A DNA stretch of 64,000 bases from NCBI RefSeq assembly GCF_000346465.2, contig NC_034015.1, forward strand, positions 18,275,510 through 18,339,509, in the 5' to 3' direction. A model generated the notes under the pieces. The model saw nothing but the letters and a program-made list of their open reading frames with translations. It searched no databases and was not told the origin of the DNA. The DNA comes from Prunus persica. Taxonomy: Eukaryota > Streptophyta > Magnoliopsida > Rosales > Rosaceae. Positions 12,215-48,040 of the stretch are shown here, piece after piece. Both the position numbers and the translations under genes were made by a program. Within the stretch, counting starts at the first letter, position 1; each line of letters opens with the position of its first letter.

Positions 12215-12259
<45 letters not shown>

Positions 12260-13555
12260 CACTAAGAGAAGCCAAGAGAGTAGAAGCAACAGTTATAGTA
12301 GCAGTGCACAAAACTTTGAGCATCCAAAAGAAGAAAATTGATTAATTAAATAATTAATTAGACTCACAACTAAACCAGAAACCGCTCTTGTAGGCTTTTA
12401 CAGATGAAAAGCTCATTTATCCTTCTTTTTTCCAGTTTTCTTATTACTCTCTACTTTATTCCTTACCCTTTAAAGTTGTGCATGGTGTCAATCAGCCATT
12501 GGTCCACATCACCAAGATTACAAAAGAATTTTCCTCTTGACTAGAACGTTACAGATTTTTCAATGAGCTTTCAAAATTTCCGTAAAGTTAGCCTCTTAAT
12601 CGTCAACTGATGCTGATCAATTATATGTCCTCTGAGTTGTCCATGCAAATTGCAATGCAGCATCTATAGGGGCATTATGGTAATTTTAGTGGTGACAAGT
12701 TAACCACGCACCCTGACAAAGCGGACGGGTTTCGGTTCCTTTGGTTTGTAGTGGGGAAGTGCTTAGTTTCACCACTTCCTTCTTCTTGTTGACCAAAACA
12801 AGCCTTCCTTCCCGTGCCACTCTATAGTTTATATTGTTCGTCAGGGGTATTTCTGTAATTCAATTAATAGCCCAAAATATCCCACTAGGGTCACAAAAAT
12901 CAGAGCCCATCAAGACCCTTGCTCATAGTTTTATATCTGGTTTTGATCATTTTATATGCTTTTGGAAGTTTGCCCCTTAATCGTCAACCAAATGTCTAAA
13001 TTTGAATAACTTGAAGCTCAAACATGGTTTCTTTTTGACTGATTGTTGGGTAAATATAGTACATTTTCATGGAACGATTTACCAACTTGATCATTGCTCA
13101 TTCAATGGGTGAAGGACTTTTTTTCCCCCTTTAGAAGGAGCATCACTTTCATTTGGCGAAAGAGCCTCATACAAACTTGTAAAAAGCAGCATAAACTATA
13201 CTCAGTGGAAGGCCTATATTGCCCCTCATGGATTAGGTAGCTACCCGCAACCATGGTGTGACCTTTTGGAAAGGCTGAGCTGTGGAGAGGATGGGAAGCA
13301 TTGAAACACCTGAAGCATCTGCAAGACTTGACGGTACCGAAGTAAACTCTCCTACTGCTTAAACTTAAAAGTGAAGTGCAGATATATTCAAACCGAGCTC
13401 AAATCCGATGAAAAGCTAACTGGAACTTTATTGAGCACGGAGGTATCAGCTATTGTTATCCCACCTCTTTTGGGACTGTAGAATTTTCTCATACATGTAC
13501 TGTTTGATGATTTGCAATATTTAAAGTATCATCATAATCTATGTTATAGAACATG
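11690..13555. other. Intergenic: bHLH promoter region with TA and GA microsatellites
   Basis: Holds the 5' leader side of the bHLH gene and the 3' flank of the RBR gene that ends at 13556. A (TA)n run lies at about 12137-12159 and a (GA)n run at about 12222-12256, 530-570 bp upstream of the bHLH start codon. GA-rich tracts are common in plant 5' leaders, so this one may be transcribed. No domain-bearing frame seen. Confidence 0.6.
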
Positions 13556-19200: not shown

Positions 19201-20623
19201 CTATTCTCCTTTCAAGAATATACATATTTCTTTCAAGAATATATGTATTTCTTTCAAGAATAATATACGTCTTTCTTTCAAGAATATAAGTATTTCTTTC
19301 AATGATATACTTGTTTCTTTCAAGAATATACGTGTTTCTTTCAAGAATGATATACGTGCTTCTTGTGTTTCTTTCAAGAATATACGTGTGTCTTTCAAGA
19401 ATGATATACGTGCTTCTTGTGCTTCTTTCAAGAATATACGTGTTTCTTTCAAGAATGATATACGTGCTTCTTGTATTTCTTTCAAGAATGATATACGTAT
19501 TTTGTTCCAAAATATACGTGTTTCTTTCAAGAATGATATATGTATTTCGTTCAAAAATATAGGTGTTTCTTCCAAGAATATACGTATTCTGTCGTAAAAG
19601 GAATAGCTGGGTTCGTTGTATAAGAACCCACGTCCACACCTGCAACAACCCGAACTGGAAATTATCATCACTCATACTAATCAATTTTGATGGCGACGTG
19701 GCTTTAAAAAAAAATAAACAAACAAAGGGCATTTAGATTTTGCATATCATTGAATAATTAAGATGACGTTTTAGATACTTTGATTCATAGTTTTATGAAT
19801 GAGTATATCAATGATGAATTTGAATGTATCTACAATTTTGTATCTACGTATATATTCATAATATCTTAAAACCAATTTCAAATTAAGTAACACTAGAACT
19901 CAAATTAGGCCTAATTTCCAAACTAGTAGCTACAATCAATCTACAGAATTAATTAGGCAGCAAGAGTACTATAATCTACATAACCGACCTGCATATCATG
20001 CGGTTGCACCCAGAAGATTTTTGAATATAGTATTTGCAACTTGGACACCTCGGCCACTTCAGTTTTCTGGCAAGCACCTTGACCATATCATCATCATTTA
20101 GTTTCTGAAACTGGGCACAATCGAATTCAGTATGCCAAGGAACCTTACAACTAGGGCACAACTCTCTCTTGCAATGAGGACACACTGATGCACACACAGC
20201 CCGTTTGGTGCCATTCTCATAAACCAACAACGCTGAGCAATCCTTGAAGGGACAGTACAAGTACTTGTCAGTCTCAGACCCCATAACCACAGCTTCACAC
20301 AAGGCACTGCCCCACCGATCGAAAATTTGGTTCGGGAGAATTGGACGGCAGTGCTCCGGGTCTAACATGCCCTTGCAGCCTGGCACAGGGCACATAATGG
20401 ATGTCACATTGTCTTGGAGCTTGGACACTACGAATTTGACAATGCATTGGTCGCAATAAAAATGGCTGCAACCCTTCACCTTGAATGACTCTTGCAGATG
20501 CTTTGACTCAACGCAGAAATCACATGTGAAAGTGCTTGGATTAATATCATCTTGTTGGTCATTGATTAACAATATCGCCAATCCTACAACCTTCCTTTGG
20601 TGTCGAAGTTTCTTCCCTTCCAT
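19201..20623 (-). CDS. RBR-like protein with degenerate RING2 and repeat-encoded tail, copy B
   Basis: Two exons (minus), 19989-20623 and 19201-19639, stay in frame for 357 aa. RING1 is at about 34-83 (CDFCVESK, GCSHFYCDQC, MCPVPGC). The IBR is at about 104-169 (YCPFKDCSALLV, CPHCKRELCPSCKVPWHTEFDC). The start of RING2 (CPSCKYYIQKSSGC) keeps the likely catalytic Cys206. After the usual phase-2 intron, exon 2 begins CGRGFLYNEPS where intact copies have an FCYxCG pattern, so the last two zinc cysteines are missing. The remaining 125 or so residues are a tandem repeat of 7-8-residue units (RIFLKET, RISFLKET) encoded by a minisatellite. The frame is open to a TAG at 19201. It may be a functional variant or a decaying gene that still has a long frame. 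Expression is unknown. Confidence 0.7.
19205..19600 (-). repeat. Coding minisatellite, 21/24-bp units and 54-bp higher-order unit
   Basis: Repeated copies of TTTCTTTCAAGAATATACGT (plus strand) alternate with a form carrying an extra GAT. In the centre (about 19330-19490) two such units plus CTTCTTGTG make a 54-bp unit present about three times, coding 18 residues ending in TQE or AQE. Unit lengths are multiples of three, so the reading frame survives copy-number change. Confidence 0.9.
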
Positions 20624-23600
20624 GATTCAATCTTAGTAATTGATTAATTTCTTGGGATGTCGATGCCAAGAATACGTATCTTCAAGGCAGACCGTGAGTG
20701 GGAACTCTTAATTATAGGTTAAATAAGTCTCCGTATTTTTTGTTGGTGTTAGGTCAAGAATCCTTTCCTTGGTAAATTGGTAAACCTTATTAGACTCTAG
20801 ATATGAGTAAATAATTCAAGTCAATTGTTTGGTGTCAACTTATATTATTTAATTACCTGACTAACTAATGTTGACGTAAGTCTCCCAATTAATCAAGGAG
20901 ATTTATTTCCTTGGTTAATTAAGGGATTTACTTTCCTATTTTTATATAGTTGGTAAATCATTGTATAATTAGGAGATACTTTCCTAATTTTTTACTATAT
21001 CTAATTCCTTGTAAAGCACCCTGTAAACTTTTATATATACTTCCTTATGGAGAAGAATAAAATTAGCATAATACATTCAAACCATATTCATATTTTAGCA
21101 ACTAATACAACTCACACACTTCGTTTTAGATAATACACGCTTAATTATAAGGCTATGAAAAAAAGAACACACACCGGTTTGGGCTTTTTAATATATATAT
21201 ATTTTTTTGGTATTCCAATTTTAACTTGGGGGTTGCACAAATGATGGGTGGGCCAGTGAGGAAGACAATGAAGGAAGCAGATAGAAGGAAGAGAGAATCG
21301 GGAGAGAGGTTTCTTGTTTTAGTATTAGGTAGGGCTGTCTTTCGGCCGGATCAGATCGGAAACAGCAATTCCAATTCTAATCCAATATCTTTCAGAATTC
21401 AATATAGAGTTCCGATTCCGATTCCGAAAAAATTTGGAAATTTTCGGAAGATTCCAATTTCGAAGCCCTTAACTGACAAAAAAAATTTAAGAGATTTAAA
21501 TGCCCAAACTAGCATTTTGTAAAAATCTCAACTAAACTTTAATCAAGAAAACCCAGCTTAGGGGTTTAACAACTAGTCCAACAGGAACTTTACAGGCCCA
21601 AATAGGTTGTACTTTTAAGTCCCTACACAAAATGACTGAGTTTGAAGATATTTATAAAAGACTAAACACCTGAAGTTTATTCTTGCAGTCGATATGGGAC
21701 TCCAAGAAGAAATGGGAGTGCAACTTCTCTCTCCACTCTTTTCTTGATTTCTACTTGGTTACTCATCCATCACTTCTCCTCTCTCTTCCGTTTCTTCCTT
21801 TCTAATCCATGAATGCCAACCTTCATTTTCTTTCTTACTTAAAACTCTTCAGATATGGAACAATATGTACGGATCCTGTTAGGAAAAAAAACAAAAACAC
21901 TTCTCCAACCAAAAAAGAAATCATTCTTCAATTCTTTATCTCTACTGTTTCTTCTCTTGCATTTTTATTTTTCTGTGTTTGCACTAAATCATTTATCCGA
22001 TGTATATGTTCTCCATTGAATCCTCATTGGAGCTCTCTTCCCTTGTTGCAATACCCCACACCATCCAGATTTTTTCTTTATCATTTATTTTTCTGTTTCT
22101 GCACAAATTCATTACTTTTTTGGTATTGAGATGGAATGAAAACCTTTAATTAAGAAAGAAAGAAAATCAAAGAATGAGTTTTAAAAATTTAGAAATGTTT
22201 CCTTCTTTTTTTCGTCACTTCAATTCAATGTAGGATTGCAAAAAAAAAAACGCAGATGGTTTTTTTTTAAAGTTATAATTGCCTTGGACCTCCTCTTTCT
22301 GATTATCCTTGGAACCTATTATAATTGCCCAAGGCATAGCTTATTTTGAAAGTTATAGCATGTTTGAATTCACCTTATATATATATAACAATCTATTATT
22401 TTATATACAACAATCTATATAGTATATTGATTATTAATCAAAGTAATTTGTCCTACATATTATATATTTATATTTTGTTCATGTGAATCAAATTTTTTTG
22501 ATTCCATGCTAAAGATGGATTCACATCCATCAATTGATGCTCAAGACTCAAGTTATAGCCGAGTGACTATCACATTGGTTTTAGATTCTAGTGGGTCATG
22601 AACATGTATAAAGAGTGTTAGACGTTAATCATGCTCTAGACAATTGTAATACTACAATTTTCAGGTTGGAATACTACAATTGTTAAAGCTCCAATTAATA
22701 TACGCACATTATATGTGGTGTTTCATGTATAAAATGATTTTATAATTAAAAGTTTAATTGAAGATAGTTTATAATTTTAAAAATACATACATAAATATAA
22801 AATGAAATAGTATAATACTTCCTACATTTACCATATATGTACATAGTACATATGGATATAACAAGCACACATATGCACCTTTTTGTTATATTAAATCAAG
22901 CATATTTTCCAAATATATATATAGTCTTAAAGTTACATACTACTATGTTTAGTTTTTTTTTTTTTTTTGTCAAGCCTATATTTAGTATGTACAAATATTT
23001 GTATGTGGGTACTAAAACTTAACAAATAAGAAATGAAACATATATAAGACCTATAAACTAAAAATAATGCAATTATACTTAGAAACTCGGAATTTTTCGG
23101 AAAAAAATTGGAAAAATCGGATCGGAATGGATTCGGAGAACTTCGGAATTTTTCGGATTGGAATTTCGGAATGTTCGGCATTTATCGGAATTTTCGGATT
23201 TCGGCATTTTCGGATATCGGATTTATCGGAGTCGGATTTTTTTGGAAAAAATCAGACCGGAATCGATCGGAATCGGATTTTCCAATCCAACTTACACCCC
23301 TAGTATTAGGCAACTGTTGGATATATCTAATGGCTAAAATGATTTAGCAAAAACAAATGAAAAAATAATTGTCATATGAATATTACTAAAAGAACTCGTG
23401 TCATTTGAATTTCAATTTCCATTTAAATTATCAAAGATTTAAAAAATTATAGTATGATTTGATATTATCTGAAGCACCAAACACAATATAACTTGACTAT
23501 TTATCTTGAACAACACCAAACGCTTCATAATATTATAAATAAACAATTAGTACTCTCTGAAACAAATTAATATTATCCGGTATAAATTAATCAGTTCAGT

Positions 23601-25140: not shown

Positions 25141-26583
25141 TTATTTGTGACAGCTTGGACAATGTCTGGTATGTGAAGTTAAGGAAGCTTGAACTCCACA
25201 ATTGTAACAGAAAGCATTTCCACACCTGCAACATTTGCAATCAAATTTGATTACAAAAGCAAAGGAACCACTAGTGTAGTGGTTTGGAGCAATTGCTCCT
25301 CCAGGCAAAATCCTAGGTTAAAGTCCTAGCATCCGTGTAGTTTGTGTGAGTTTAATATATTATTGTCATTCTCAATAGGAAAGGTCCTCAAAAAACCAAA
25401 AAATTTGATTATGAAAAATAATACAAAAAAAGAACAAGAAATATACACCAAAAGATCAAGTTTATGTAAGTTGAAGGAGGCATCGAACAGCTGAAACCAA
25501 TATCAGATTAAGTAACATTTAACTCAAATTAGCCCTTTTTAATTCCTAAGCTATTTGAGAATCAAAGAAAATAAACCAATCTGCAGAGAACCTAGAAGTA
25601 GCATAGCAGAGAAGTTCAACTGACCTGCATTTTATGTAGCTGCACCCATCGCGTCTTTCAACATAGTACTTGCAACTTGGACACCTCCTCCAGTTCTTAT
25701 TCTTGGCAAGCTCTTCCAGCTGCTGATCTTCACCCCTATCTCTCAGTTTCTGGAACATGTCACAATCGAATTCGGTATGCCAAGGAACCTTACACTTGAC
25801 ACAAAACACTCTCTTGCAATGAGGACACTGAGCTTGTTTGGTATCATCTGGTTCCTCATCAATCAACAGCGTGGAGCATGCGTTGAAGGGACAGAATAAG
25901 TACTTTTTCTGAGGCTCCATAACCACAGATTCACACAAGGCCTTGCCCCAGCGGTGAAAGACGTCGTATGGGAGAATTCGACGGCAGTACTCAAGGTCTA
26001 ACACCCCAGGGCATCCTTGATTCGGGCACGTAACAGATGTGACATTGTCTTGGAGCTTGGACACTATGAATCTAACAATGCACTCTTGACAGTAAAAATG
26101 GGCGCAACCCTTGATGTTAAATGAGTCTTTTAGCTCAATTTGCTCAACACAGAAATCACATGTGAAAGTTGAATCAACAGCGTGCTCTGTTTCCAAAAGA
26201 GATTCACACAAGGCAGTCCCCCACAGATCAAAGACGTCGTTCGGGAGGATTGGACGACAGTACTCAGGGTCTAGCAGGCCACTGCAGCCTGGTGTGGGGC
26301 ACATAATGCATGTCACATTGTTTTGGAGATTGGACACTATGAATTTAACAATGCACTCTTGACAGTAAAAATGGGCGCAACCCTTGATGTTGAATGAGTG
26401 TTCTTGATGAACTTGCTCATGGCAGAAGCGACATACAAAATTTGGATCAATATCACCAACTTGCTTCTTTTCTTTCATATGTTTACTATGTTTGGTCATG
26501 AGGGTACCGATTTTGTTGCCCAATTGTTTGCCTCCCAGAACTTGCTTGTCCAGGTTTTTTCCTCTGCAAATTATGTTGCCCAT
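25141..26583 (-). CDS. RBR E3 ubiquitin ligase with two RING1 domains, copy C
   Basis: Two exons (minus), 25625-26583 and 25141-25225, give 347 aa. A first RING1 is at about 51-100 (CRFCHEQ, KGCAHFYCQEC, MCPTPGC) with its linker (CRPILPNDVFDLWGTALCES). A near-copy follows at about 142-220 (CDFCVEQ, KGCAHFYCQEC, CPNQGC, CRRILPYDVFHRWGKALCES). The IBR is at about 231-274 (CPFNACSTLL, CPHCKRVFCVKCKVPWHTEFDC). RING2 is at about 301-343 (CPSCKYYVERRDGC, predicted catalytic Cys314) and exon 2 ends FCYNCG...CPSC. The N-terminus MGNIICRGK fits an N-myristoylation site with a palmitoylation Cys, so membrane attachment is possible. The intron carries a SINE. Exon 2 is 85 bp, as in copy A. A CTT/CT microsatellite abuts the start codon. 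Confidence 0.88.
25254..25400 (+). mobile_element. tRNA-derived SINE in the intron of RBR copy C
   Basis: Shares a body with the SINE at 39281: CACTAGTGTAGTGGTTTGGA, a Pol III box-A-like stretch, then a degraded box B (GGTTAAAGTCC), GCATCCGTGT and TCAATAGGAAAGG before an A-rich tail. An 11-bp duplication, AAATTTGATTA, flanks it (25243-25253 and 25401-25411). It is opposite in sense to the host gene. Confidence 0.8.
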
Positions 26584-26600
26584 CTTCTTCTTCTTCTTCT

Positions 26601-26655
<55 letters not shown>
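26584..26655. repeat. (CTT)n(CT)n microsatellite
   Basis: CTT repeats run into about 22 CT units directly upstream of the ATG of RBR copy C. On the coding strand this is a GA/GAA-rich 5' leader. Confidence 0.9.
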
Positions 26656-26659
<4 letters not shown>

Positions 26660-26748
26660 TCTTTAGTGGTTCTAAACTTTTCACACTCTCATGAAACAAC
26701 AGAACACGAAAGACTGATCTATGTGGGAAAGCTTTCACCAATAATTAA

Positions 26749-35300: not shown

Positions 35301-36141
35301 CTTTGACCAAATGCGTGTGTTCCACATCACCTGAACAGAATTAATCCCGTTCAGCATACAGATAAGAACAATGACTTTCCGCATTTACACAAAATGGCTT
35401 GCCAAAAAAACTATTGACTATCTGTTTTCATGAATTCTTACACAAAGCAACAAATGCAAGGTTATTTCTATCGCAATTTGTTTGAATAACACATTGGGAT
35501 TTTTTTTTTTTTTTCTATTTTAATGAGTAACACGTACCTCCAAGATACTTGCTCTTCTCAATGGATAACTTCTGTGCTTCAGCTGCCCTACAAATACCAT
35601 TGCAAATATGATTATGCTAATAAACAGCAGAGCCATAGTCAAGTTGAACATGAAAGTTTAGATAATAACCGGAGATCAACATTTCCAGGAGGCGCAACGG
35701 CGTGAAAAGAACCCAATTCAGTCTGCTCATAATCAGGATTTTGATCTTCTCTTCGCTCCTTTGCTCTGTCTCTGTATTTTGGCAACTCCGGCTGTTCTGC
35801 TTTCTCCTCTCTGCATGCAGCACCACATAAACATAACATCAAACACATAATCTACATTCAAAAATTCATTTTTCAATGTCTGAAAAGCTAATTTAATCCC
35901 AGATTTTAGCAAAACAGGTTCATTACCCACATAAAAAAGGGTACAAAATTAAGATAATAATAATAAAATTTTAAGCTTTAGAAAAATAAAAAAAAACATG
36001 GTGCTGATGCCCATATCGACTACGCTGCATGTTAAACGTTGAATTGGAAGCTGTGTGTTGTACAGTGAACGAAACAAATTGAACTTTAACTCACTTGCGG
36101 CGAATAACTTTCTCCTTGTGATGTTTCTTTGACGACGTCAT
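32355..36141 (-). CDS. SMU2: RED/IK spliceosomal protein, SMU2 homolog
   Basis: Eleven exons (minus): 36095-36141, 35670-35810, 35538-35587, 35216-35330, 34927-34975, 34752-34841, 34384-34452, 34177-34300, 33366-33739, 32865-33245, 32355-32639, giving 574 aa. It starts MTSSKKHHKEKV. The RED N-terminal region is recognisable (PKYRDRAKERREDQNPDYE, KYLGGDVEHTHLVKGLDYAL, FLPGRMSF, DIPTTLHRSKADCP). A polyproline tract (about eight prolines, GPPP) follows, then an acidic region. The RED C-terminal block reads GRLHRWDFETEEEWATYNE and KAAFQFGVKMQDGRKTRK, with a basic end PGKKLRV. RED/SMU2 works with SMU1 in the spliceosomal B complex and affects splice-site choice. Exons sum exactly to 575 codons. 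Probably a single-copy housekeeping gene. Confidence 0.95.
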
Positions 36142-37051
36142 TGATACAACTGAATTAAAATCAGGGTTGAGGGAGCTTCTTCAAATGGCAACAGTTAGGG
36201 TTTGCAGCAGTGGCGAATTGGCGAAACGAGGTCGCTGGAACAAGATGCAGGCAGGAGGATTTCGTTGATCGCTAAATTACGGATATAGCCTTCCGTATAT
36301 ACGCATGCTTGAAAGTTGAAACGCACCGTTCTTCAATTTTGGCTTCTTTCTTTCTCTTTTTTCTTTTTCTAATTCGTGAAAATTAAGTTTGACAACTCAA
36401 TCAAAAACGACATCGTTTCGGGTCACCTCACTAGCTCCTTTGGACCGCATCCTTCGGTGGACATTTTTTTTCTTTTGGTCAAACCTCATTGGACTATGCA
36501 CTTCTCTTGCAAGCTTGTCCTTGATCAACAAGGAAGAGAACTTAATTCGTTCGGATCCTTAAACATGCTTTGTGCACCCCAAATTGAAAGGATTTGGGTA
36601 TGGAAATAATAAAAATTCTAAATAGTTGACATGTACTTATTTCATTCGTTGTTAATCATTATATATATGCTTAAATTGTTAATTAACATATCAATTGTTA
36701 TATTATACGATTACTTATAATGGTATAAAAATGTGATCATTCTAACATTATCCGTGCTCGTGAGTTTCGATGTTGCTCGACAACCTATGCAATTGATCAT
36801 GGTCCTCCTCTTAACCCTTACTAAAAGACAATATATGGTAGTATATAGAATAATGTCCAGTCAATTGTGAATTATTGGTGCTAAACTAATAGACAAATTT
36901 AGGCTGATAATTACAAGGGAGCTTTTGGTTATTAAAAACTCTTGAAAGCTTGGCCTTTACTAGCCAAGAGTATCTAAAACTCTATATATTCTTACACATA
37001 AGGATTTCTAGGTACCTAGAGGACAGAAGTCAGTAATATTCAACTTGTCAA
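36142..37051. promoter_or_regulatory. Divergent intergenic region between SMU2 and the GDSL lipase
   Basis: The two genes are transcribed away from each other, so this 0.9-kb segment should hold both promoters. A TATATAT box lies at about 36983-36989, 63 bp before the lipase ATG. The stretch 36760-37050 is duplicated upstream of the lipase pseudogene at 42360-42670, where the TATA box is missing. Confidence 0.6.
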
Positions 37052-38826
37052 ATGGCAAGCCTGCAGAATTCTCCCTTGGATCACTCAATCCTCATCTGTG
37101 TGAGCACTCTGCTGTTGTCAACTGTGTTTGGATCATGTGCTAGTGATCACACATTGAGCAGCAGGACTGTTGCCTTGTTCACTTTTGGTGACTCAACTGT
37201 AGATCCTGGAAACAACAATTACATCAAAACCATTCCTGAGAACCAAGCACATTACAAGCCGTACGGGCAGAACGGCTTCTTCCAACACCCCACGGGACGC
37301 TTTTCTGATGGTCGTATCATCGTAGATTACATAGGTAAGTATTATATAAATATATTTGCATAATCAAAATAAAGAAGTATAGAAGATGTGGTATAATGTT
37401 TTGTATGCTAATGATGCAGCGGACTATGCAAAGCTGCCACTGATCCCTCCATTTTTACAACCTTCTGCTGATTACACAAATGGTGTCAACTTTGCATCTG
37501 CTGGGGCTGGCGTCCTTTCTGAAACCAATCAAGGATTGGTATGGCAAATTTTAGTCTTTATATGGCTATGAATCACTAGAGATCTTCTTATTTTGTGTAC
37601 ATAATAATTTGAATCGAATTGTTCAATTTTAGGTGATTGATCTTCAGACACAATTGAAAAACTTTGAAGAGGTGCAGAAATCACTAACAGAAAAGTTTGG
37701 AGAAGTGAAAGCAAAGGAAGTGATATCAGAAGCAGTTTATTTCATTAGTATTGGGAGCAATGATTACATGGGTGGTTATTTGGCCAACCCAAAAATGCAA
37801 GAACAATATAACCCTGAACAATATGTGGGGATGGTAATTGGAAACTTGACACAGGCAATCCAAGTAAGCCTTATCAAACCTGCTTTTCATTGCAGAGGGT
37901 CTTCAAAACAAGGCCTGCTGACTTTTGAGTTGACCCTTTTTTTTTTTCTTTTTCTTTTTTGCAGGTGTTGTATGGGAAAGGGGCTAGAAAATTTGCTTTC
38001 CTAAGGTTGTGTCCACTTGGATGCTTGCCTGCCTTTAGAGCTCTGAACCACAAAGCCAGTGGAGGGGATTGCTTTGAAGCAGCTTCTGCCCTTGCTCTAG
38101 CACATAACAATGCTTTAAAAACTGTGCTCACAAGCCTTGAATATATGCTCAAACAGTTTAAGTACAGCACCTCCAATTTTTATGATTGGCTCCAGGACAG
38201 AATAGATAATCCCTACAAACATGGTAACTATGCTTTATGTTATTTTTATTTTCTTCCCAAACTTACAATAGCACCATTAAAATATAAGAAAAGTAGTGAT
38301 CCCCAGTGACCAGGCAAAGCACAATATAGAAAGGGGTTAGATAGATTAAATTACTAAAATGATCTTTGGTGGGGATCTTAATCAATGGTTTCAGGTTCGA
38401 AACATAGTAACACGTTGATAGTGTGTGTGAGAAAATCCCCCTCCCCCTTCCTAACTTTGGCAAAATAATGACTGCACTCACGGAAAATGGTCATTTTAAT
38501 CTAACATTTACTGTGTAGGTTACAAGGATGGAGTGAATGCTTGCTGTGGGACTGGACCCTATGGGGGCATCTTCACCTGTGGAGGCACAAAGGAAGTTAA
38601 AGATTACCAATTATGTGAAAATGCTGATGATTATGTATGGTGGGATTCTTTTCACCCCACTGAGAGGATCCATGAGCAGCTTGCAAAGGCTCTCTGGAAT
38701 GGGGCCCCTTCCTCTGTAGGGCCATACAACCTAGAAGAGCTCTTCTCAGTTGATGAGGAGAAGCTCACCATTGGCTATATGGTTGATGACCCAGAAGCAC
38801 AAGATCACTTTTCACTTCTAAAATAG
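37052..38826 (+). CDS. GDSL esterase/lipase, GLIP-like, secreted
   Basis: Five exons: 37052-37334, 37420-37538, 37633-37863, 37965-38223, 38519-38826, giving 399 aa. An N-terminal hydrophobic stretch (ILICVSTLLLSTVFGSCA, about 13-30) is a likely signal peptide. Block I reads FTFGDSTVDPGNNNY with the catalytic Ser48. Block III has GSNDYMGGY (Asn177), and block V has WWDSFHPTE (Asp340, His343). These are the serine-hydrolase residues of the SGNH/GDSL class. Family members cleave ester bonds in lipids, cutin or small molecules in the apoplast; the substrate here is unknown. Similarity in length and motifs points to the GLIP1-5 group. A frame-broken duplicate lies at 42672-43277. Confidence 0.93.
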
Positions 38827-38984
38827 TAGCAGGACAGGACCACGGTAGCTTACCCTGCAGCCTGCCCGTCAGTGAAGGGGCTAGAAGTTTAGTTGATATA
38901 TGCAATTTGTATGTGATGATGTGTGTTGCCCTTGTGATAGTTAACTTCTTTGCAAAGTCAGTCTCCTCCTATGTTTGGGCTTCG

Positions 38985-39125
38985 GCCTCCATAAACATAT
39001 TTGCGAATAATATTAAGTAAAAATAACAACAAACATAAATATGTCTTGAGTGATATGTTGAATCCAGGTTCCCTAAAATCTTCACGACCCCCAACCCTCC
39101 CTCCAAAAACCGAAGTGACAACCAA
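38985..39125 (+). pseudogene. RBR 5'-end relic downstream of the GDSL lipase
   Basis: Matches the upstream flank and first codons of RBR copy D: TTGAGTGATATGTTGAA at about 39045 and again at about 43550, then a frame beginning MLNPGSLKSS at 39055. Homology stops at about 39125, where other repeats begin. No RING domain remains. Confidence 0.75.
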
Positions 39126-39169
39126 CGATCAAGAAAGAAAAACATATTTTATTATTCAGATTGTACAAT

Positions 39170-39614
39170 GTTTGAAAAATCGCTAGGCGGTCCTAGAGTT
39201 TTTTTTTTTAAAAAAAAATTATTTTGTATTATAAATTATAAATTTATACAAAATCAGGCAAAATAAAAGGATATATAACCGCAAAGGACCCACTAGTGTA
39301 GTGGTTTGGAGTATTTACTCCCTCAGGCAAGGTCCTGGGTTCGAGTCCTAGCATCCGTGTTGTGTGTATGAGTTTAATATGCTATCGCCCCTTTCAATAG
39401 GAAAGGACCTCAAAAAAAAAAGGATATATAACCCAAAAAAAAAAAAAGGCATAGATACTTAGAGAGAGAGAGAGAGAGAGGGCCGCGAGTTGCGGCGGGT
39501 GGGTGAGGGGTCGTCGCGGCTTGGTGGTGGTGGTGGTTTTCTTTCAAGTCCAAAAAAAAACCTTGGCTAGGCCGCCTAAATCCCGTCTAGCGCCTAGGTG
39601 CTGATTTTTTGAAC
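39170..39614. mobile_element. Inverted-ended repeat element, probable MITE, with a nested SINE
   Basis: The left end is GTTTGAAAAATCGCTAGGCG and the right end is an imperfect inverse (GCGCCTAGGTGCTGATTTTTTGAAC). The body holds a GA run and GC-rich DNA, plus the SINE at 39281. The family is not identified and no clear target duplication was seen. Confidence 0.45.
39281..39416 (+). mobile_element. tRNA-derived SINE
   Basis: CACTAGTGTAGTGGTTTGG resembles a Pol III box A. GGTTCGAGTCC (39338-39348) is a perfect box B. It ends in an A run and is flanked by a 16-bp direct repeat, AAAAGGATATATAACC (39265-39280 and about 39417-39432). It is the same family as the copy at 25254-25400 and better preserved. 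Confidence 0.85.
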
Positions 39615-40259
39615 TAAAATAACAACAACAAAAAATTCATATTCACATTTATTTCTCCCCTTACCCCATCTCAGCTCAGTAGGGGTGAGCATTAATCTAG
39701 CCGAACTGATTAAATTGGCCGAATTGAACAGTAATTATAGGTTTGGTTTAATTTTGACCAAGAAAAAGTCAAATGGTTTAAAACCAAACCATACTATATA
39801 TCAGTTGGTTTGGTTTAAGCTTTTATAAATCAGTTTAAAGCAGACCAGACTGATATATATATATATATATATATTTTACACGTGTAATCCCCCAATTAGA
39901 TAATAACTAGACTATCTACTTATATTTTTATTTTTATTTTATTTTGCACGTGTAGTCCTCTAGAGAATCACTATATATGAATGTTGAATTTGAAATTAGA
40001 TAGACCTTTTGTAGTTGTTGATATTTAAATTGTAGCTATATTAGTTATTGAATTTTGAAGATTGATGACATGTGGAGTTTTAGGATAGTTTCATTGTAAC
40101 TACATTAAGATATATTTATTTTTTATAAACGGTATAGCCGGGTTAATAAAAAGCCGTGTGGCTATACTTCGGTTTTATTCAAAAAATAGTATAGCCGGGC
40201 GGCTATACTATTTTTTGAAACGTGGCGAAATGGGCGCTAGGCGGGACGGCTATATAAAT

Positions 40260-40875
40260 TGTAAGATCCCACATCAACCAATTGAGAGGGGGTGATGTGC
40301 CTTATATGTGCACACCCGCATCCATCTAGCACGAGACCTTTTGGGAGCTCACTGGCTTCGGAGTCGTAGGAACTCCGAAGTTAAGCGAGTTGGGGGCCAG
40401 AGCAATACCAGGATGGGTGACCCACTGGGAAGTTGCTCGTGAGCTCCCAGAAACAAAACCGTGAGGGCAGAGAGGGGGGCCCAAAGCGGACAATATCGTG
40501 CTACGGCAGAGCGGATCCCGGGATATGACAATTTGATATCAGAGCCACTCTGCCGTGCGGTGCGAGTGTGCCGACGGACGTCGGGCCCTTAAGGGGGGTG
40601 GATTGTAAGATCCCACATCGACCAACGGAGAAAGGGCAATGTGCCTTATATGTGCACGCCCGCATCTATCTAGCACGAGGCCTTTTGGGAGCTCACTGGC
40701 TTCGGAGTCGTAGGAACTCCGAAGTTAAGCGAGTTGGGGGCTAGAGCAATCCCAGGATGGGTGACCCACTGGGAAGTTGCTCGTGAGCTCCCAGAAACAA
40801 AACCTTGAGGGCTAGAGAGAGGGGCCCAAAGCGGACAATATCGTGCTACGGCGGAGCCGATCCCGGGGTGTGACA
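40260..40875 (+). mobile_element. Complete Cassandra TRIM retrotransposon
   Basis: LTRs are at 40260-40530 and 40604-40875. Each begins TGTAAGATCCCACATC, ends TGACA and carries a 5S rRNA-like segment. The primer-binding site GATATCAGAGCC (40535-40546) follows the left LTR; it fits initiator Met-tRNA in this family. The purine tract AAGGGGGGTGGAT precedes the right LTR. A perfect 5-bp duplication TAAAT flanks it (40255-40259 and 40876-40880). The 73-bp internal region has no coding capacity. The LTRs differ at roughly 15-20 sites by eye, so the insertion is not recent. Confidence 0.95.
40344..40448 (+). other. 5S rRNA-derived segment within the left Cassandra LTR
   Basis: GAACTCCGAAGTTAAGCG and GGATGGGTGACCCACTGGGA match the internal promoter region of plant 5S rRNA. 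The same segment recurs in the right LTR at about 40688-40792. It is a captured promoter, not a ribosomal gene: it sits inside a retrotransposon LTR and the 5S ends are altered. Confidence 0.85.
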
Positions 40876-41396
40876 TAAATAGTCTAGCCGTTCGGCTTTA
40901 CTATAGTTTTTATTATTAAAAAATATTATAGCCGCCCGGCTATACTTGGGGCCTTTCTTATAACAAGCGTACAGACGAGCAGCTGTATTACGATTTTTAT
41001 TTAAAAATAGTATAGCCGTGTGGCTATACTTATTTGGCATGTGGCAAGCTGACTCAGCTCCAGGTGTGCTGTTTTTTAATTATAGTATAGCCGGGAGGCG
41101 ATACTCGAGGTTTTTTTTAAAATAAAAATGGTGGCACTAGGCAGGTGATTTTTTTTCTTTTTTTATAAATAGTATAGCCGCGCGGCGATACGCTTTCTGC
41201 ACTATTTATAAAAAGGTATAGCCGGCCGGCTATACGTTTTAAATTGACTAAATTACCAATTTCACCCTATCTTCTCCTCTAGTTTACGTACTTGCCACTC
41301 CCTCTATTTCTCTCTTTCCTCCAATCAACCACAGCCCCAGCCCTCTTTAGTTCAACGTAATTAGGGTTTTGATCCTCTTCATCATAAAACCCACGA

Positions 41397-41573
41397 ATGT
41401 AATCAGACGACGACTTCGGCATGCTCGACGCCAATGATAACGAGGATTTCTATAATGCCGGCGACGACGACGAAGCCGGCGCTATGGACAGCGACGAAGC
41501 TTGAGTTGCGGATTACGAGTTCATCGACAACGACTCGGACGATTCCAATGATGTCGCCTCACATCGATACCAG
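41397..41573 (+). pseudogene. ARIADNE-type (ARI) RBR gene, first-exon fragment
   Basis: The frame reads MLDANDNEDFYNAGDDDEAG then ADYEFIDNDSDDSNDVASHR, the acidic N-terminus of plant ARI5/7/8-type proteins. It ends at an intact donor (CAG before GTGGCT at 41574). Stops directly after the ATG and at about 41501 make it non-functional. An apparent 5' leader (about 41250-41396) precedes it. No later ARI exon follows; the next sequence belongs to another RBR pseudogene. Confidence 0.75.
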
Positions 41574-41631
41574 GTGGCTTTCTGCTTATTATTATTTTTT
41601 AATTATGACAGTTTCCTTCTATTAACCTATT

Positions 41632-41995
41632 TTCGAATAATATTGAGCAAAAATAAAAACAGACTAAACAAGAAACCCACAGAAATATCTCTTGGGGTGA
41701 TATGTTGAAGCCAGGTTCCCTAAAATCTTCAAGCCCTCCAACCCTCCCTCCAAAAACCGAAGTGGCAACCAACGATAAAGAAACAATGACAAAGAGCCAG
41801 CAGGCTTTTGTCTGTGAAATCTGTGTTGAGCCCAAGGCAGAGCAGCATCCGAGTGGTTTGGCATAAAAAATTGCAGCCATGCTTATTGTAGGGATTGCAC
41901 ATCAGGGCTGCTAGAGCCCGGGCTTTGTCGTTCGATCCTCCCCAAGGAGGTGTTTGAGAGGTGGGGGTCGCCTTATGTGAGGCTGCTAGACGGGT
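41632..41995 (+). pseudogene. RBR pseudogene, relative of copy D
   Basis: Matches RBR copy D from its upstream flank (CGAATAATATTGAG) through the start region (ATG at 41702), RING1 (FVCEICVEPKA) and part of the linker (CCCAAGGAGGTGTTTGAGAG). A frameshift falls in RING1 after CATCCGAGTGG. About 70 bp corresponding to the second half of RING1 are deleted after TGTAGGGATTGCAC. Homology ends at about 41995, where palindromic repeats resume. Confidence 0.85.
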
Positions 41996-42671
41996 CATTT
42001 TCTCTTCTTGTTTTTTTTTTTTTTTTCGAATAAATAGTATAGCCGCCCATCTATTAAATATAAAATACATAAAGAGTATAGCCGAACGGCTATACTACCT
42101 TTTTTTATTGTTAAAAACAGTATTGCTGGGCGGCTATACTCTGGGTTTTTAATTTAAAAAGGTATAGCCGCCCCGGCTATACTTTCTTGACACGTCGCAA
42201 GTCGGCGGTATAAACAGTATAGCCGCGCGGCTATACTAGGGTTTTTTATTATAAAAAATAGTATAGTTGTGTGTATGAGGATTCCTGCTCCCTTATAGTT
42301 TAGACTATCGCTTGTACTCAAAAAAATAAAATCCTCTAGAAAGCAATGTGATTTGATAACATATGCAATTGATCTTAGTCCACTACCCCAAATCCTTACT
42401 AGAATACAACATTAATAATTACTAGAACCAAAGATATCTAGAATAATGCTCGTTCAATTGTGAATTATTGGTGCTAACAGACATTAATTTTAGGCTGATA
42501 AGTACAAGGTAGCTTTTGGTTATTATAAACTCTCTTGAAAGTTTTGTCATCTACTTGCCAAAGATTATGAACTCTCGAGAGTTTGGCATCTACTAGCCAA
42601 GATTATCTTAAACTCTTACACGCAGGATTTTTAGGTGCCTAGGACAGAAGTCAATAATTTCAATATCTCAA

Positions 42672-43277
42672 ATGGCCAAGCTGCATATTTCTCTCTTGGA
42701 CCACTTAATTAATATTCATATCTGTGTGAGCACCTTAGTGTTGTCAATTGGGTTTGGGTCATGTGCTAGTGATCACATATTGAGCAGTACATCCTGGAAA
42801 CAACAATTACATCAACACCATTCCTGAGAAATTAACCAAGCACATTAGCGATCTTATTTTGTGTACATAAATTTGATCGAATTGTTCAATTTTAGGTGAT
42901 TGATCTTCAGTTCAGACAGAAAATGATCTTTAGAGCGGATCTTAATGATCCCTCCAATCTCAGTAAAATAGTTTGGTAATTTCAATTTTACACAAACTAT
43001 GGTCATTTTAATCTAACATTTACTGTGTAGATTACAAAGATGGAGTGAATGCTTGTTGTGGGACTTGACCCTATGGGGGCATCTTCACCTGTGGAGGCAC
43101 AAAGGAAGTTAAAGACTACCAATTATGTGTGAAAATACTGATGATTATGTATGGTGGGATTCTTTTCATCCCACTGAGAGGATCCATGAGAACCTTGCAA
43201 AGACTCTCTGGAATGGGCCCCCTTCCTCTGTAGGGCCATACAACTAGAAGAGCTCTTCTCAGTTGATGAGGAGAAAT
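42672..43277 (+). pseudogene. GDSL lipase pseudogene
   Basis: A degraded duplicate of the gene at 37052-38826. The start codon and signal-peptide region remain (42672 on). The GDS block is deleted: the sequence jumps from TTGAGCAG to ATCCTGGAAACAACAATT. Most of exons 2-4 are lost. Exon 5 is nearly complete at about 43031-43277 but has a stop in place of Gly (GGGACTTGACCC) and frameshifts. Homology extends upstream to about 42360, where the TATATATT box of the active copy is missing. Confidence 0.92.
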
Positions 43278-43336
43278 AATTAGTATTGGAGTCTATTATT
43301 ATTAAAAAAAAATAAGAATGGGAAAAATAGGAAAAA

Positions 43337-43362
43337 TAATAATAATAATAATAATAATAATA
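43337..43362. repeat. (AAT)n microsatellite
   Basis: About nine AAT units just downstream of the GDSL pseudogene. Confidence 0.9.
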
Positions 43363-43558
43363 ACCATGTGGCGGATGGTCTTGGTGATTTTGACCATTCG
43401 CTGGCAATTTGTATGTGATGATGACTTCTTTGCAAAGTCAGTCTCCTTCTATGTTTCGGCTTCGGCCCGAATAATATTAAGTAAGAATAAAGAGCACAAA
43501 GAAAGCGAGAAAAGATCAACAAACTAAACAAGAAACCCACAGAAATCTCTTGAGTGAT

Positions 43559-44706
43559 ATGTTGAAGCCAGGTAAATCTTCAATCCCCAAAAACCCTCCC
43601 TCCAAAAAACGATATGGCAACCCACAATCAAGAACCCCCTATAAACCCCCTATGGATTTATCCATAACTGAAGTTGGGGAGTCTTTCAACTCGGAGAATA
43701 CAAAGACCCAGCAGGCTTTTGTCTGTGAAATCTGTGTTGAGCTCAAGGCAGCAGCATCCGATTGGTTTGGCATAAAAAATTGCAGCCATGCTTACTGTAG
43801 GGACTGCATGGTCAGTTACGTGGCCTCCAAGCTTGAAGAGAACATCACAAGCATCCGGTGCCCCGACCCAGATTGCACATCAGGGCTCCTAGATCCCGAG
43901 CATTGTCGTTCGATCCTCCCCCGGGAGGTGTTTGAGAGGTGGGGAGTTGCCTTGTGTGAGGCTGTGGTACCTGCCTCTCAAAAGGTTTACTGTCCCTACA
44001 AGGATTGCTCTGCAATGCTAATCATTGATGATGATGGGAAGAAAGGGATGATCGTAAGGCAATCGGACTGCCCCCATTGTAGGAAATTGTTCTGCGCGCA
44101 GTGTAAGGTTCCTTGGCATGTAGGGTTTGAGTGTGCCAAGTTTCAGAAGTTGAACAAGGTTGAGAGGGAAAGGGAGAACATGTTGAGAAACCTTGCGAAG
44201 AAGGAACAATGGAGGAGATGTCCCAATTGCAGGTTCTATGTGGAAAGATCGCGGGGTTGCAACATCATCCAATGCAGGTCAGTTTATCTTTTACCTTCTT
44301 TCTCCCCTAATTACTGATAAATCCGATCAGTGACGTAAAATGTCGATCTTAAGTGGTTCTATTTCTAATGTTGAAGGAGGAGGTCCCAGACTCCCATGTG
44401 ATTTCAACCTCCCTAATAATTATAAATAAATAAAACAAAGGTGGACTAAAATTGCTGAATACTGTTTCAACTTGTTTCGTTCAATTCAATGAATTCTTGA
44501 ATTAATGCCCTATTAATTTATGTCCTTTTTGAGTTGATTGCAGGTGCAAAACTAAGTTCTGCTACGAATGTGGTGAACTTTACATCAATTGCAAGTGCAA
44601 AATTGATTGTTTTGTTTGTTTGTTGGGGTGCTGCGGACTTATTGTTGTTGTTGTTAGTTTTTTTGTTGTTATTGTTATGTTCTGGCGGGCAGTGGCAGAG
44701 CCATGA
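43559..44706 (+). CDS. RBR E3 ubiquitin ligase with C-terminal hydrophobic segment, copy D
   Basis: Two exons, 43559-44277 and 44544-44706, give 293 aa. RING1 is at about 56-106 (CEICVELK, NCSHAYCRDC, RCPDPDC). The IBR is at about 145-192 (CPYKDCSAMLI, CPHCRKLFCAQCKVPWHVGFEC). RING2 starts at about 221 (CPNCRFYVERSRGC, predicted catalytic Cys234) and continues CKTKFCYECG in exon 2. Exon 2 then codes CKCKIDCFVCLL and a roughly 20-residue run of Gly, Ile, Val and Phe (about 268-287) with a short polar end, resembling a tail anchor. RNF144-type animal RBRs also have a C-terminal membrane segment. The intron sits at the shared AG|G position. The ATG at 43559 is the first in frame. GDSL pseudogene DNA lies just upstream. 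Confidence 0.85.
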
Positions 44707-45463
44707 ATTTAAGTAAGAGGGGCACCCTTTAAAATTCACTCTTTCTTATATGACAAATCAACCTACTTTTCAAGAAATTCCTTTTTCTCACTTTTCTTTG
44801 TTTTTTTTTTCTCTCTTATTTTTTATGAATAACCTAACACTCTTTCATGGTAACAAAATCCATGCAACTCAAAAGAAATTTACACATGAAATAAAGAGAA
44901 GAGGGGCATTTAAGAATTTTTGAGGAATTTTAAAATATTTGTGCAAGATCACTAACATAAAATTTTATGTACAACAACATTTTAGATGGGCCAGTGCCCA
45001 CCCTAGGCATGCACTGATGTGATCAAGTTTTAATTGACGCTATTCTTGAAGTTATTATCTTGATTTTTCTTATTATAATTGAATACACGATAATATTTTC
45101 CGACATAAATATGGCCAATCCATAGCCAACCTTGCTAGCTCATGATTGCCGGTCAGATTGAAGCAATCAAAAGAGCAACTTTCAGTGCTCAAATGTGGCT
45201 AACTCAAAGTGCCCCGGCAGGAATTTGCCTATTATTTTTTCAATTGATATTTCGATATAGAAAGATCGGCCCTTGATTTTTATTTTTTTTTATTTTTGAA
45301 TGATAACCTTAACTCTTTAAAATTAATGAAGTTATCAAATTCCAGCAACATTAATAAAGTTTCAACAAAAAAGAAAAAAAAATAATTGACGTGTCAAAAT
45401 CACATTGATTGTAAGAAGGAGCTCCTCCTCAATTTTATTTTTGGGTCATGCTAGGGAGACCAA

Positions 45464-45569
45464 CTTTAGATACCAACTTGTGTACCAACTCTCTAATAGA
45501 GGTGGAGCCCACCAATACAAGGGGTCCCACACTCTATTAGAGAGTTGGTACACAAGTTGGCATCTAAAG
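45464..45569. mobile_element. Foldback MITE, 38-bp arms
   Basis: The left arm 45464-45501 (CTTTAGATACCAACTTGTGT and on) is mirrored by 45532-45569 with a single mismatch. A 30-bp loop separates them. No internal frame. Family and target duplication are not clear. Confidence 0.85.
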
Positions 45570-45914
45570 CACTCGAGAAGAGTAAGACCAAAGTCTCTGC
45601 TGCATTTTTCTTTTTCGGGTGGATTTGTGGGATTGTGAATTGTGAATTTATGAGGATTTTGATTTTGGGGGTCTTTGGTAGTTCGGATTCTTAACGACTT
45701 TGGGCGGGAATATTTTTGCACGTGGAATGCACGTGAGTTAGACAGGTCGGTGACTTCTAATGTAAGGAACTAATATATGGACACCCATTAATTTGTTTTC
45801 TAGACACCCAATTCCATAAACAAATCTTTGTTGTTCACAAGTAGGTGTGGCAATTTCCGATGACGACTCAATACATAATTTGACATCCGCACGATTAAAC
45901 TTTACAGTCAACTC

Positions 45915-46143
45915 NNNNNNNNNNNNNNNNNNNNNNNNNNNNNNNNNNNNNNNNNNNNNNNNNNNNNNNNNNNNNNNNNNNNNNNNNNNNNNNNNNNNNN
46001 NNNNNNNNNNNNNNNNNNNNNNNNNNNNNNNNNNNNNNNNNNNNNNNNNNNNNNNNNNNNNNNNNNNNNNNNNNNNNNNNNNNNNNNNNNNNNNNNNNNN
46101 NNNNNNNNNNNNNNNNNNNNNNNNNNNNNNNNNNNNNNNNNNN
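45915..46143. other. Assembly gap (229 N)
   Basis: A run of N bases. Any frame crossing it is artificial. It lies about 320 bp upstream of RBR copy E, so part of that gene's promoter may be missing. Confidence 0.99.
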
Positions 46144-46464
46144 GTCAAATATGATGTGCGGTTGCACATCATTCAAGAAAGAGAAGAAGAGAGAGGTAGC
46201 AAAAACAGGAAAGTAGAAGAGAGAAAGGCACATTAAGGCAACTTATTGTATCTACCCTAATTCGGACTCGGGATAGCGTACAAGTAACACATTAATATTT
46301 ACATATATATATATATATATATATAAGCTTAAGAAGAGGAAGTTATATGCGAGTGAGTGGCATGTACATATATATAGAAGAATTAATAAATTAAGAAGAT
46401 CAGGAAACTGAGCTCAAAGGTGAAGAAAAAAAAGTGTCGCAGTTGCAGTCTCAATTTCAGTTTC

Positions 46465-48040
46465 ATGGCGTTTTTGAATGTTAACTTTGGGGAGGTTAAA
46501 CATGATGATGATACTTATGGAGATGATCATGACTTGTTCTTCACACCCTTGTCATCCCCAACAAGGTTGTCCACAAAAAGGCGGCCCTCCAAAAATTGGT
46601 GTAACCCAATCTTGCAGCACATCAAGGCTCTTCTTCCATTCAAAATGCGAAGAAATCCCTCAAGTGATGAGACCAAGAAGACGAAGAAGAAGATTAACAT
46701 GAAGACGAAGACGAAGAAATCGAGTTTCCACCCTCCAGCATACGGTGTAAGAACTAATAGTGATGAATATAATTTCTCCACTGATGATGCTTTTGACAGA
46801 TTTATGCTTTATTTGATGCCCTTTGAAACTAGCGGAGGAGGTCGGCTCTACGTTGATCATAATTATGAAGAAGAAACTCATGAATTTCCAAGATCAATCA
46901 ATCCCCAGAAAAAAGCTACTTCTGATGATGATGATCTCTTGAATGAATTTATGCTTTCTTGGGAGCCCTTCAAAAATAGACGAGATCCAAATTATTTTGA
47001 TGAAGAAGAAGTTGAATTTCCAAGATCAAATATCGATCCCCCCAACACTCCTGAAGAAGTTGACGACATTGTTGCTCATGACAATAAATTCATGGCTTCT
47101 TCTAGGGTTTCTCATGAGGTTGGGAAGCCTTCCGATTCGAAGAATATCGAGTACGTCCCAGCGGTTAATAATAATTTTGGTTGTAATATCTGCTTTGAAC
47201 CCAAGGCTGGACACCAGTGGTTTGACATCAAAAATTGCAGCCATGGTTATTGTACGGAGTGCATGGTCAATTACGTGGTCTCCAATCTTCAAGAGAACGT
47301 CACAACCATTCGATGCCCTGATCCTGATTGCGCATCAGGATCAATAGAGCCCGAGGATTGTGACTGGATACTTCCCCAAGAAGTGTTTGAGAGGTGGGAA
47401 AGCTCGCTTTGTGAGGCTGCGATCCCCAGCTCTCAAAAGTTTTACTGTCCCTTTAGTGATTGCTCTGCGATGTTGATTATTGATAATGATGATGGGAGTG
47501 AGGTTGTGCGGCAGTCTCAGTGCCCGCATTGTCGAAGGCTTTTCTGTGCGCACTGTAAGGTTGCTTGGCACGAGGAGATGGAGTGCTGGGAGTTTCAGGA
47601 GTTGAATGACGATGAGAGGGGAAGGGAAGACATCCAGTTAAGGAACCTTGCAAACATGGAGGATTGGAAGAGATGTCCCAACTGTAAGTTTTATGTGGAA
47701 AAGAAGACCGGTTGCAATGTCATGAAGTGCAGGTCAGTTTCTATGATCATAAATATATTTGTGAATCCCGTTTTTCATCATATACATGTCATAATCGAGA
47801 ATCGTTTATTTAATAATTAACAATTTAGAGAACATATTCTCAAAAAAATTTAGACTAGCGAAGCCTTCAACCTGTTTTGTTCAATATATACATATGAATC
47901 GATCCATTACTGCCCTATCCATATGATTGGATTAATTTCTGTTTATTTGCAGGTGTAGAGCTACTTTTTGCTACAGATGTGGCCAGAGTTTAAGCGTGCC
48001 TAAAAACCAACGTCACTATTGTTCCTATTGTACGGGTTGA
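46465..48040 (+). CDS. RBR E3 ubiquitin ligase with long acidic N-terminus, copy E
   Basis: Two exons, 46465-47732 and 47953-48040, give 451 aa. The ATG at 46465 (MAFLNVNFGE) is used; the frame is open further upstream but without an ATG. Residues 62-86 are Lys/Arg-rich, a possible nuclear signal. Residues 108-143 and 158-187 repeat a pattern (FMLYLMPF...EFPRS and FMLSWEPF...EFPRS). RING1 is at about 240-289 (CNICFEPK, NCSHGYCTEC, RCPDPDC). The IBR is at about 328-374 (CPFSDCSAMLI, CPHCRRLFCAHCKVAWHEEMEC). RING2 starts at about 404 (CPNCKFYVEKKTGC, predicted catalytic Cys417) and exon 2 gives CRATFCYRCG and CSYC. The intron is at the shared AG|G site. It has the longest N-terminal extension of the cluster. 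Confidence 0.88.

Follow-up and report, generated by a model that had tools for sequence, protein, structure and literature searches.

The window, a 64,000-nt stretch of the peach (Prunus persica) genome (G000:C7:18275510-18339509, from an assembly of 227.5 Mb in 192 contigs), contains an array of short palindromes at 40131-42285, and the same palindrome recurs thousands of times elsewhere in the genome. Its consensus is the 22-mer AGTATAGCCGNNCGGCTATACT, that is, the arms AGTATAGCCG and CGGCTATACT separated by two variable nucleotides (NN), the inner part of which we refer to as the 18-bp core. The array is real, abundant and more structured than first noticed. With slightly more belief than doubt, we read such arrays as groups of binding sites for a dimeric protein, carried by non-coding mobile or satellite-like elements; that a protein binds the palindrome is something we infer from the pattern of the sequence.

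The palindrome is abundant and clustered

The exact 18-bp core occurs at 4,689 places in the genome and a reversed control pattern at none, and the genome-wide search suggested by the first-pass annotation of this stretch returned many dispersed clusters. The copies were characterized in a sequence sample consisting of 20 stretches from the tip of contig C1 (196 kb), one more 7-kb stretch and one 2.1-kb stretch from contig C2. Counting up to 5 mismatches, the 20 C1-tip stretches plus the window contain 193 copies, including 65 exact cores. Scaled to the whole genome and allowing up to 3-5 mismatches, the number of copies comes to about 11,500-13,900, an estimate that is rough because the sample was picked around exact cores. 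When shuffled arms were searched for in the same sequence, 29 of 30 gave between 0 and 2 matches, while the remaining one gave 89.

Copies are grouped: the first 77 core places listed on C1 (to 2.245 Mb) form 30 clusters under a 2-kb gap rule. Among the 144 steps between neighbours in the sample that are shorter than 150 bp, 86 measure 40-57 bp, the distribution peaking at 44 bp (13 steps) and 48 bp (15 steps). The distance between the two halves of the palindrome is nearly uniform, with 134 of 145 half-site pairs in the sample lying 2 nt apart when one mismatch is allowed. Genome-wide, exact arms enclose a centre of 3-12 nt at 26 places, of which 9 have 3 nt (one of them in the window) and 3 have 4 nt. 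At a larger scale, regular steps between palindromes suggest tandem units of ~1.6 kb at C1:38586820-38594891, ~0.7 kb at C3:5284450-5290704 and ~0.8 kb at C1:4412863-4433715.

The centre varies freely and the arms mostly change one side at a time

The central dinucleotide varies among the copies of the window array, as had been claimed from the letters alone, and all 16 dinucleotides are present among 100 listed places, CG being seen 29 times. Genome-wide, CG occupies the centre of 1062 of the 4,689 cores. The centre is thus uneven though free, with C making up 53% of its first positions (159 copies, both strands counted).

Changes in the arms are predominantly one-sided. The 193 copies carry 312 one-sided and 41 two-sided arm changes, 14 of the latter being complementary. 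Two arm positions were followed across the whole genome. For T-to-C at arm position 5, there are 706 + 629 one-sided places and 104 places changed on both sides, compared to 95 expected under independence; some of these 104 places are regularly spaced and are probably tandem copies of each other. For G-to-A at arm position 10, the corresponding numbers are 220 + 257 one-sided places and 28 changed on both sides, compared to 12 expected. The dominance of one-sided changes speaks for a pair of half-sites that a dimer reads, and against the maintenance of a hairpin.

Pairs of duplicated loci provide a view of the palindrome over time, in a set from which pairs were removed if the palindrome contained a gap or if gaps made up more than 6% of the flanks. 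At a flank divergence of 5-8% (~6.5%), the arms differ by 10.6% and the centre by 38%, figures based on 34 pairs among 34 distinct copies that are not independent, 22 of the pairs involving a single locus (L051). Without this locus (12 pairs, 16 copies), the same divergence class gives 9.2% for the arms and 50% for the centre. At 25-32% flank divergence (97 pairs), the values for arms and centre reach 16.5% and 62%. Palindromes, and their centres above all, therefore change fast early, after which the arms level off. We dropped the comparison of arm with flank divergence as a proof of selection, since the arms themselves served to find the old copies.

Diverse repeat elements probably carry the arrays

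When palindromes were masked, the sequences flanking the arrays proved to be common to different loci in several ways; owing to the masking, an alignment that stops at a palindrome in this comparison carries no information. In one family (L040-L045), 1-3 palindromes lie between conserved flanks. TTTAAA borders the array on both sides in L040-L043 and varies in L044 and L045; it is shared sequence and not an independent duplication. A query made by joining the two flanks of this family, with 40 of 107 first-look candidates scored, gave 49 matches, which are spread over all eight large contigs and include some of the family's own loci. Eight places hold both flanks with a gap between them and no match spans the junction, which indicates that the array is old in this family. 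The idea of the array as a late insertion accordingly found no empty site in the sole flank family tested.

Other arrays have a different setting. In L047, inverted repeats of ~300 bp that are 75% alike stand on either side of the array. L052 comes from a tandem array on C2; it is a single repeat of 2,024 bp, next to repeats of 2,063-2,066 bp. Its left array, with forward G-boxes (see below), is followed by a body of 1.1 kb and then by a right array in which the G-boxes have the reverse orientation, and its longest open frame has 96 codons. Pieces of this body recur in 10 of the 22 other sources (L031, L032, L034, L035, L039, L046, L047, L048, L050 and L051), adjoining arrays in all of them except L034. 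We take this as an arm-body-arm architecture, seen complete in L052 alone; loci other than L052 show no inverted pair of G-box orientations. Tandem higher-order units are present in L043, L051 and L052.

The first-pass annotation had also considered that genome-wide hits might collapse into a single known satellite or transposon whose consensus is longer and fixed. The sample does not show this: spacers and contexts differ across it, and it is sub-families that share spacers, bodies and flanks.

Two further observations concern individual loci. The body of L052 contains another short palindromic motif at L052:673-760 (GACGAAATTTCGTC, GCCGACGAAA). At L037:4397-4978 there is a 291-bp tandem duplication whose junction, in the unmasked sequence, coincides with the end of a palindrome.

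A G-box motif accompanies some arrays

The spacers of some clusters contain the motif GACACGTG; GACACGTGGC is what we take to be a strong bZIP-type G-box. Counting either strand, 19.0 kb of array sequence contain 46 copies of this motif, whereas the 250 kb outside contain 13 (2.42 vs 0.052 per kb, or 46-fold). It is present in 15 of the 39 clusters that have at least 2 palindromes and keeps a single orientation in 14 of these 15, the exception being the left array of L052, which has one reverse copy at its edge. The window has three forward relatives of the motif in or adjoining its array, at 40067, 40217 and 42189.

A proposed explanation and its alternatives

In the explanation we favour, two 10-bp half-sites (AGTATAGCCG) 2 bp apart would form a site with two-fold symmetry in duplex DNA, and a dimeric protein would touch the arms and barely the centre. 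A dimer on duplex DNA would jointly explain the fixed spacing, the free centre and the independence of the half-sites. The sites are grouped in small clusters, commonly 40-57 bp apart, and some alternate with oriented G-boxes. The repeat elements to which the clusters would belong are diverse and non-coding, and at least one of them has two arms, their G-boxes inverted relative to each other, flanking a body. The protein may be encoded, now or formerly, by a mobile element, or it may be a host factor that the element exploits, and its role could be to bring ends together, to drive transcription or to resist silencing. Clusters would grow through unequal exchange and tandem duplication. The first-pass annotation had left the choice between a hairpin and a dimeric protein site; the second agrees with the 2-nt spacing, the free centre and the independent half-sites, and the maintenance of a hairpin is mostly unsupported.

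Several observations weigh against this explanation. The sample contains 120 half-sites without a partner, although many of these belong to decayed palindromes or look like matches by chance at one mismatch. The genome-wide count of centre lengths begins at 2 nt, and indels are rarer than substitutions anyway. At arm position 10, paired changes are 2.3-fold over independence, with one-sided changes still at 17 per paired one; differences in copy age would yield some of this excess. The levelling of arm divergence and the arm conservation of old copies are partly due to ascertainment. One locus, L051, supplies 23 of the 46 GACACGTG copies, so that some of the enrichment, most visibly there, reflects common descent, and the exact motif is absent from 24 of 39 clusters, including that of the window. 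The start of the L052 unit is a choice made within a tandem array, and a single array that switches orientation can also fit.

The distribution along C1 counts in favour of the explanation, with reservations. One palindrome variant has 96 places on this contig (70 clusters at 10 kb) and none within 14.6-32.5 Mb, a gap that covers 37% of C1 and whose bounds were drawn post hoc. Other palindrome listings do have places in this gap (2 of 100 in a list that ends at 32.1 Mb, and 1 of 15). Palindromes are strongly depleted from the middle of C1, yet present there. The same interval holds 18 of the 28 Mutator-like element (MULE) matches and 18 of the 27 DUF1985 matches on C1 among those listed.

A further point against it is that neither a binding protein nor an autonomous partner was found in the open frames scanned or in searches for MULE, DUF1985 and CACTA genes; hAT, PIF/Harbinger and Helitron elements lay outside these searches. 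The first 10 long open frames near arrays include no transposase, with 9 belonging to host-gene families (HSP70, AP2, mTERF, two PPR, ubiquitin hydrolase, a TAF1-type domain, glycosyltransferase and an LRR protein) and one having no family.

The leading alternative, which we consider unlikely while taking it seriously, is that the arrays are an old, dispersed and functionless satellite or minisatellite with a palindromic unit of 40-50 bp, spread by unequal exchange and segmental duplication, and that the conservation of the arms reflects detection and recent amplification. This is consistent with the spacing peaks at 44 and 48 bp, the higher-order tandem units in L043, L051 and L052, the regular steps between listed places that suggest tandem units of ~0.7, 0.8, 1.6 and 2.0 kb, the occurrence of 1, 2 or 3 palindromes between shared flanks in one family, and the 291-bp tandem duplication of L037 that ends exactly at a palindrome. 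However, spacers differ strongly between arrays in which the palindromes are alike, the length of the centre is nearly fixed while its sequence is free, and the clusters are small and dispersed, unlike those of a classical satellite. Classical satellite DNA, with long head-to-tail arrays of one consensus monomer, does not describe these arrays: TRF reports nothing in the window array (40131-42285) and the spacers vary.

It is improbable that these are host regulatory arrays, in which a site for a host transcription factor and a G-box form an enhancer that mobile elements have distributed close to genes. Ordinary genes are indeed present at a distance of a few kb from the arrays sampled, oriented G-boxes are enriched in some clusters, and E2F-type sites have reportedly been amplified by miniature inverted-repeat transposable elements (MITEs) in Brassica. 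On the other hand, arrays decay freely at many loci, and we know of no host factor with such a 22-bp site.

We regard as very improbable a reading modelled on bacterial REP sequences, in which the unit that functions or is copied would be a hairpin, a cruciform or the corresponding RNA. Two exact copies are predicted to fold as 9-bp DNA hairpins at -6.7 kcal/mol (two decayed copies at -4.0 and -5.3), the centre is the fastest-changing part in duplicate pairs, and paired changes exceed independence at arm position 10. A hairpin would, however, tolerate centres of 3-4 nt, which are found at only 9 and 3 places genome-wide, and no empty site was seen in the one family tested. The compensatory arm changes that had been suggested as support are also largely missing: the ratio of one-sided to paired changes is 1335:104 at one tested pair, which sits at independence, and 477:28 at the other, with its 2.3-fold excess. 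Base pairing is mostly rejected as the property that is maintained overall.

We give little credence to the palindrome as a site of strand exchange or cleavage, where a dimeric enzyme derived from a transposon would act at the 2-bp centre and arrays would grow or recombine. Such a site would combine quick turnover of the centre with fixed arms and a fixed centre length, and the difference between centre (38%) and arms (11%) in the 34 duplicate pairs is larger than expected from relaxed constraint alone; the same figures would follow if neighbouring members of an array exchanged palindromes.

The array in the window

The window array is a decayed cluster of this kind (Table 1). Up to 5 mismatches to the 22-mer are present in 12 copies, three of which are exact, and the 18-bp core is exact in 5 copies of the array; beyond the 12 there are one copy with 6 mismatches and one with a 3-nt centre. 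The count of at least 13 copies in 2.1 kb made earlier holds on these terms, and a copy with perfect arms exists as described, at 40188, its arms measuring 20 bp and not 18. A further match with 6 mismatches, at 42297, falls outside the array and was left out of the count. Scanning the entire window for the core with up to 3 mismatches gave 14 matches, compared to a mean of 0.05 in 100 shuffles; 12 of these are inside the array region and the other two are at 22554 and 36284. The array spacers are AT-rich. No Rfam family reached its gathering score in 36000-46000, and a bacterial-code scan found no tRNA.

Table 1. Features of the palindrome array and its interruptions, in window coordinates.
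Feature	Position	Strand
Left half-site remnant GGTATAGCCGGG	40131..40142	+
Decayed palindrome, 5 mismatches	40147..40168	
Exact 22-mer palindrome, centre GG, perfect arms of 20 bp	40188..40209	
Forward sequence related to the G-box spacer motif (GAAACGTGGCG)	40217..40227	+
Target-site duplication TAAAT, left copy	40255..40259	+
Cassandra-type element, two ~272-bp long terminal repeats with a 5S-rRNA-like stretch in each; later insertion, foreign to the array	40260..40875	+
Target-site duplication TAAAT, right copy	40876..40880	+
Palindrome, centre TT, 2 mismatches	40881..40902	
Palindrome, centre CC, 1 mismatch	40925..40946	
Strongly decayed palindrome, 6 mismatches	40968..40989	
Palindrome, centre TG, 1 mismatch	41009..41030	
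Forward sequence weakly related to the G-box spacer motif (GGCATGTGGCA), under the motif-scan cut-off and read by eye	41036..41046	+
Palindrome, centre GG, 2 mismatches	41084..41105	
Palindrome, centre CG, 2 mismatches	41171..41192	
Palindrome, centre GC, 2 mismatches	41215..41236	
Fragment of local RBR-type (IBR/RING) gene between the array halves	41240..42030	+
Decayed palindrome, 5 mismatches	42036..42057	
Exact palindrome, centre AA	42075..42096	
Palindrome, centre GG, 2 mismatches	42119..42140	
Palindrome with 3-nt centre CCC, 1 of 9 such exact-arm places genome-wide	42161..42183	
Forward sequence related to the G-box spacer motif (GACACGTCGCA)	42189..42199	+
Exact palindrome, centre CG	42216..42237	
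Half-site remnant AGTATAGTTGTG, right edge of the array	42260..42271	+

The array is discontinuous, being split by a 616-bp element and by a gene fragment of ~0.8 kb (~41240-42030). The two long terminal repeats (LTRs) of the element are 93% alike, the sequence TAAAT stands on either side of it, and both LTRs contain stretches resembling 5S rRNA (RF00001, E values 1e-4 and 1e-3) that score 31.9 and 28, below the gathering score of 38. Short LTRs, 5S-rRNA-like sequence and a 5-bp target-site duplication are features of a Cassandra terminal-repeat retrotransposon in miniature, and this element, which has all three, is of the Cassandra type. Its insertion is a later event than the formation of the palindrome array.

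Parts of the gene fragment resemble 38988-39139, 43510-43634, 43700-43808 and 43871-43964 of the same window. IBR/RING open frames at 14599-15645, 19979-20626, 25549-26688, 43481-44314 and 46390-47817 make up an RBR-type gene cluster, so the earlier remark that the array is not tied to any gene needs amending to the extent that the array sits inside this cluster. The best explanation of the window array is a decayed, twice-interrupted copy within the RBR gene cluster. Elsewhere in the window, a 21-bp unit (CTTTCAAGAATATACGTATTT) is arrayed at 19209-19582, where the higher-order periods measure 45-108 bp.

Neighbouring genes and transposase searches

Ten further open frames, 8 from the sampled loci and 2 from the window, comprise one with a reverse-transcriptase domain (L033), both window frames with IBR, and seven without a family. 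The MULE and DUF1985 searches scored 150 candidates per family and the CACTA search 150 of 989, and the matches listed lend no support to MULE, DUF1985 or CACTA genes as neighbours of the arrays. Three CACTA transposases are listed in C1:0-2.27 Mb, and the nearest exact core is at least 22.7 kb away from them. CACTA termini (CACTAC[AT][AT]G or its complement) have 7 matches in the window and 22 loci, none of them paired around arrays; the nearest, which has no partner, lies 158 bp from a palindrome and the others at least 1.5 kb away. A non-autonomous CACTA (En/Spm) element was thus considered and set aside on the termini and transposase association examined.

The same searches returned MULE transposases of equal score with 726-aa open frames at many places, e.g., C1:18681325, C2:25365516 and C4:22805373. 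At these three places a DUF1985 match lies ~12-13 kb off, and the set looks like a recently active VANDAL-like family.

Significance and comparison with known systems

If our explanation is correct, a single 22-bp binding site is present some ten thousand times in the genome of a tree crop, in part of the cases next to G-boxes. It would offer a system for studying how a protein of a mobile element or host and arrays of its sites evolve together, a question opened by VANC and TNPA, as well as a route to genes whose regulation shifted after an array landed nearby. The 2-bp centre, fixed in length and free in sequence, would also provide a clean biochemical prediction.

Bacterial REP/BIME sequences are likewise short palindromes that are dispersed in thousands of copies and often clustered. 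In contrast, the peach palindromes belong to a plant nuclear genome and have little or no compensatory signal. A REP-like hairpin element, whose arms stay complementary through paired changes, is not what we observe.

Foldback elements and MITEs with long terminal inverted repeats may be compared with L052, with its inverted-G-box arrays around a body, and L047, with its ~300-bp inverted repeats. Most peach clusters, however, lack an inverted pair of arms, and no target-site duplication is established for them. Falling Stone MITEs are mentioned for Prunus (PMC13359793). The literature titles listed and the passages of that paper yielded no published description of the peach palindrome repeat, in a search that did not extend to Repbase and Dfam.

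Closer parallels are found in systems where repeated motifs are read by a protein. The TNPA-binding subterminal repeats of CACTA (En/Spm) transposons (PMC2613891) are likewise repeated motifs, located close to the ends of the element and GC-rich beside AT-rich sequence; the DNA-binding protein that reads them is encoded by the element and is able to serve non-autonomous copies in trans. In contrast, the peach arrays read have no paired CACTA termini around them, and no exact core is within 22 kb of the three listed transposases.

The VANC-binding motif arrays of Arabidopsis VANDAL (Mutator-like) elements (PMC5735166, PMC10398659) similarly consist of a short motif piled up in the non-coding DNA of the elements, in arrays that expand and contract, and the oriented G-boxes of peach recall the same-orientation motifs reported there for VANDAL. 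The VANC21 motif is the 9-bp YAGTATTAY, and it is not the motif of the peach arrays, which is AGTATAGCCGNNCGGCTATACT. The latter, a dyad of 22 bp in which the centre is free, shares only AGTAT with the VANC21 motif, the one VANC motif compared, and the word palindrome is absent from the text of the VANC21 paper. Moreover, the peach palindromes are depleted where most of the listed C1 DUF1985 and MULE matches lie. In our reading, the peach palindrome arrays may work in the manner of VANC and TNPA arrays, and we assign them to neither.

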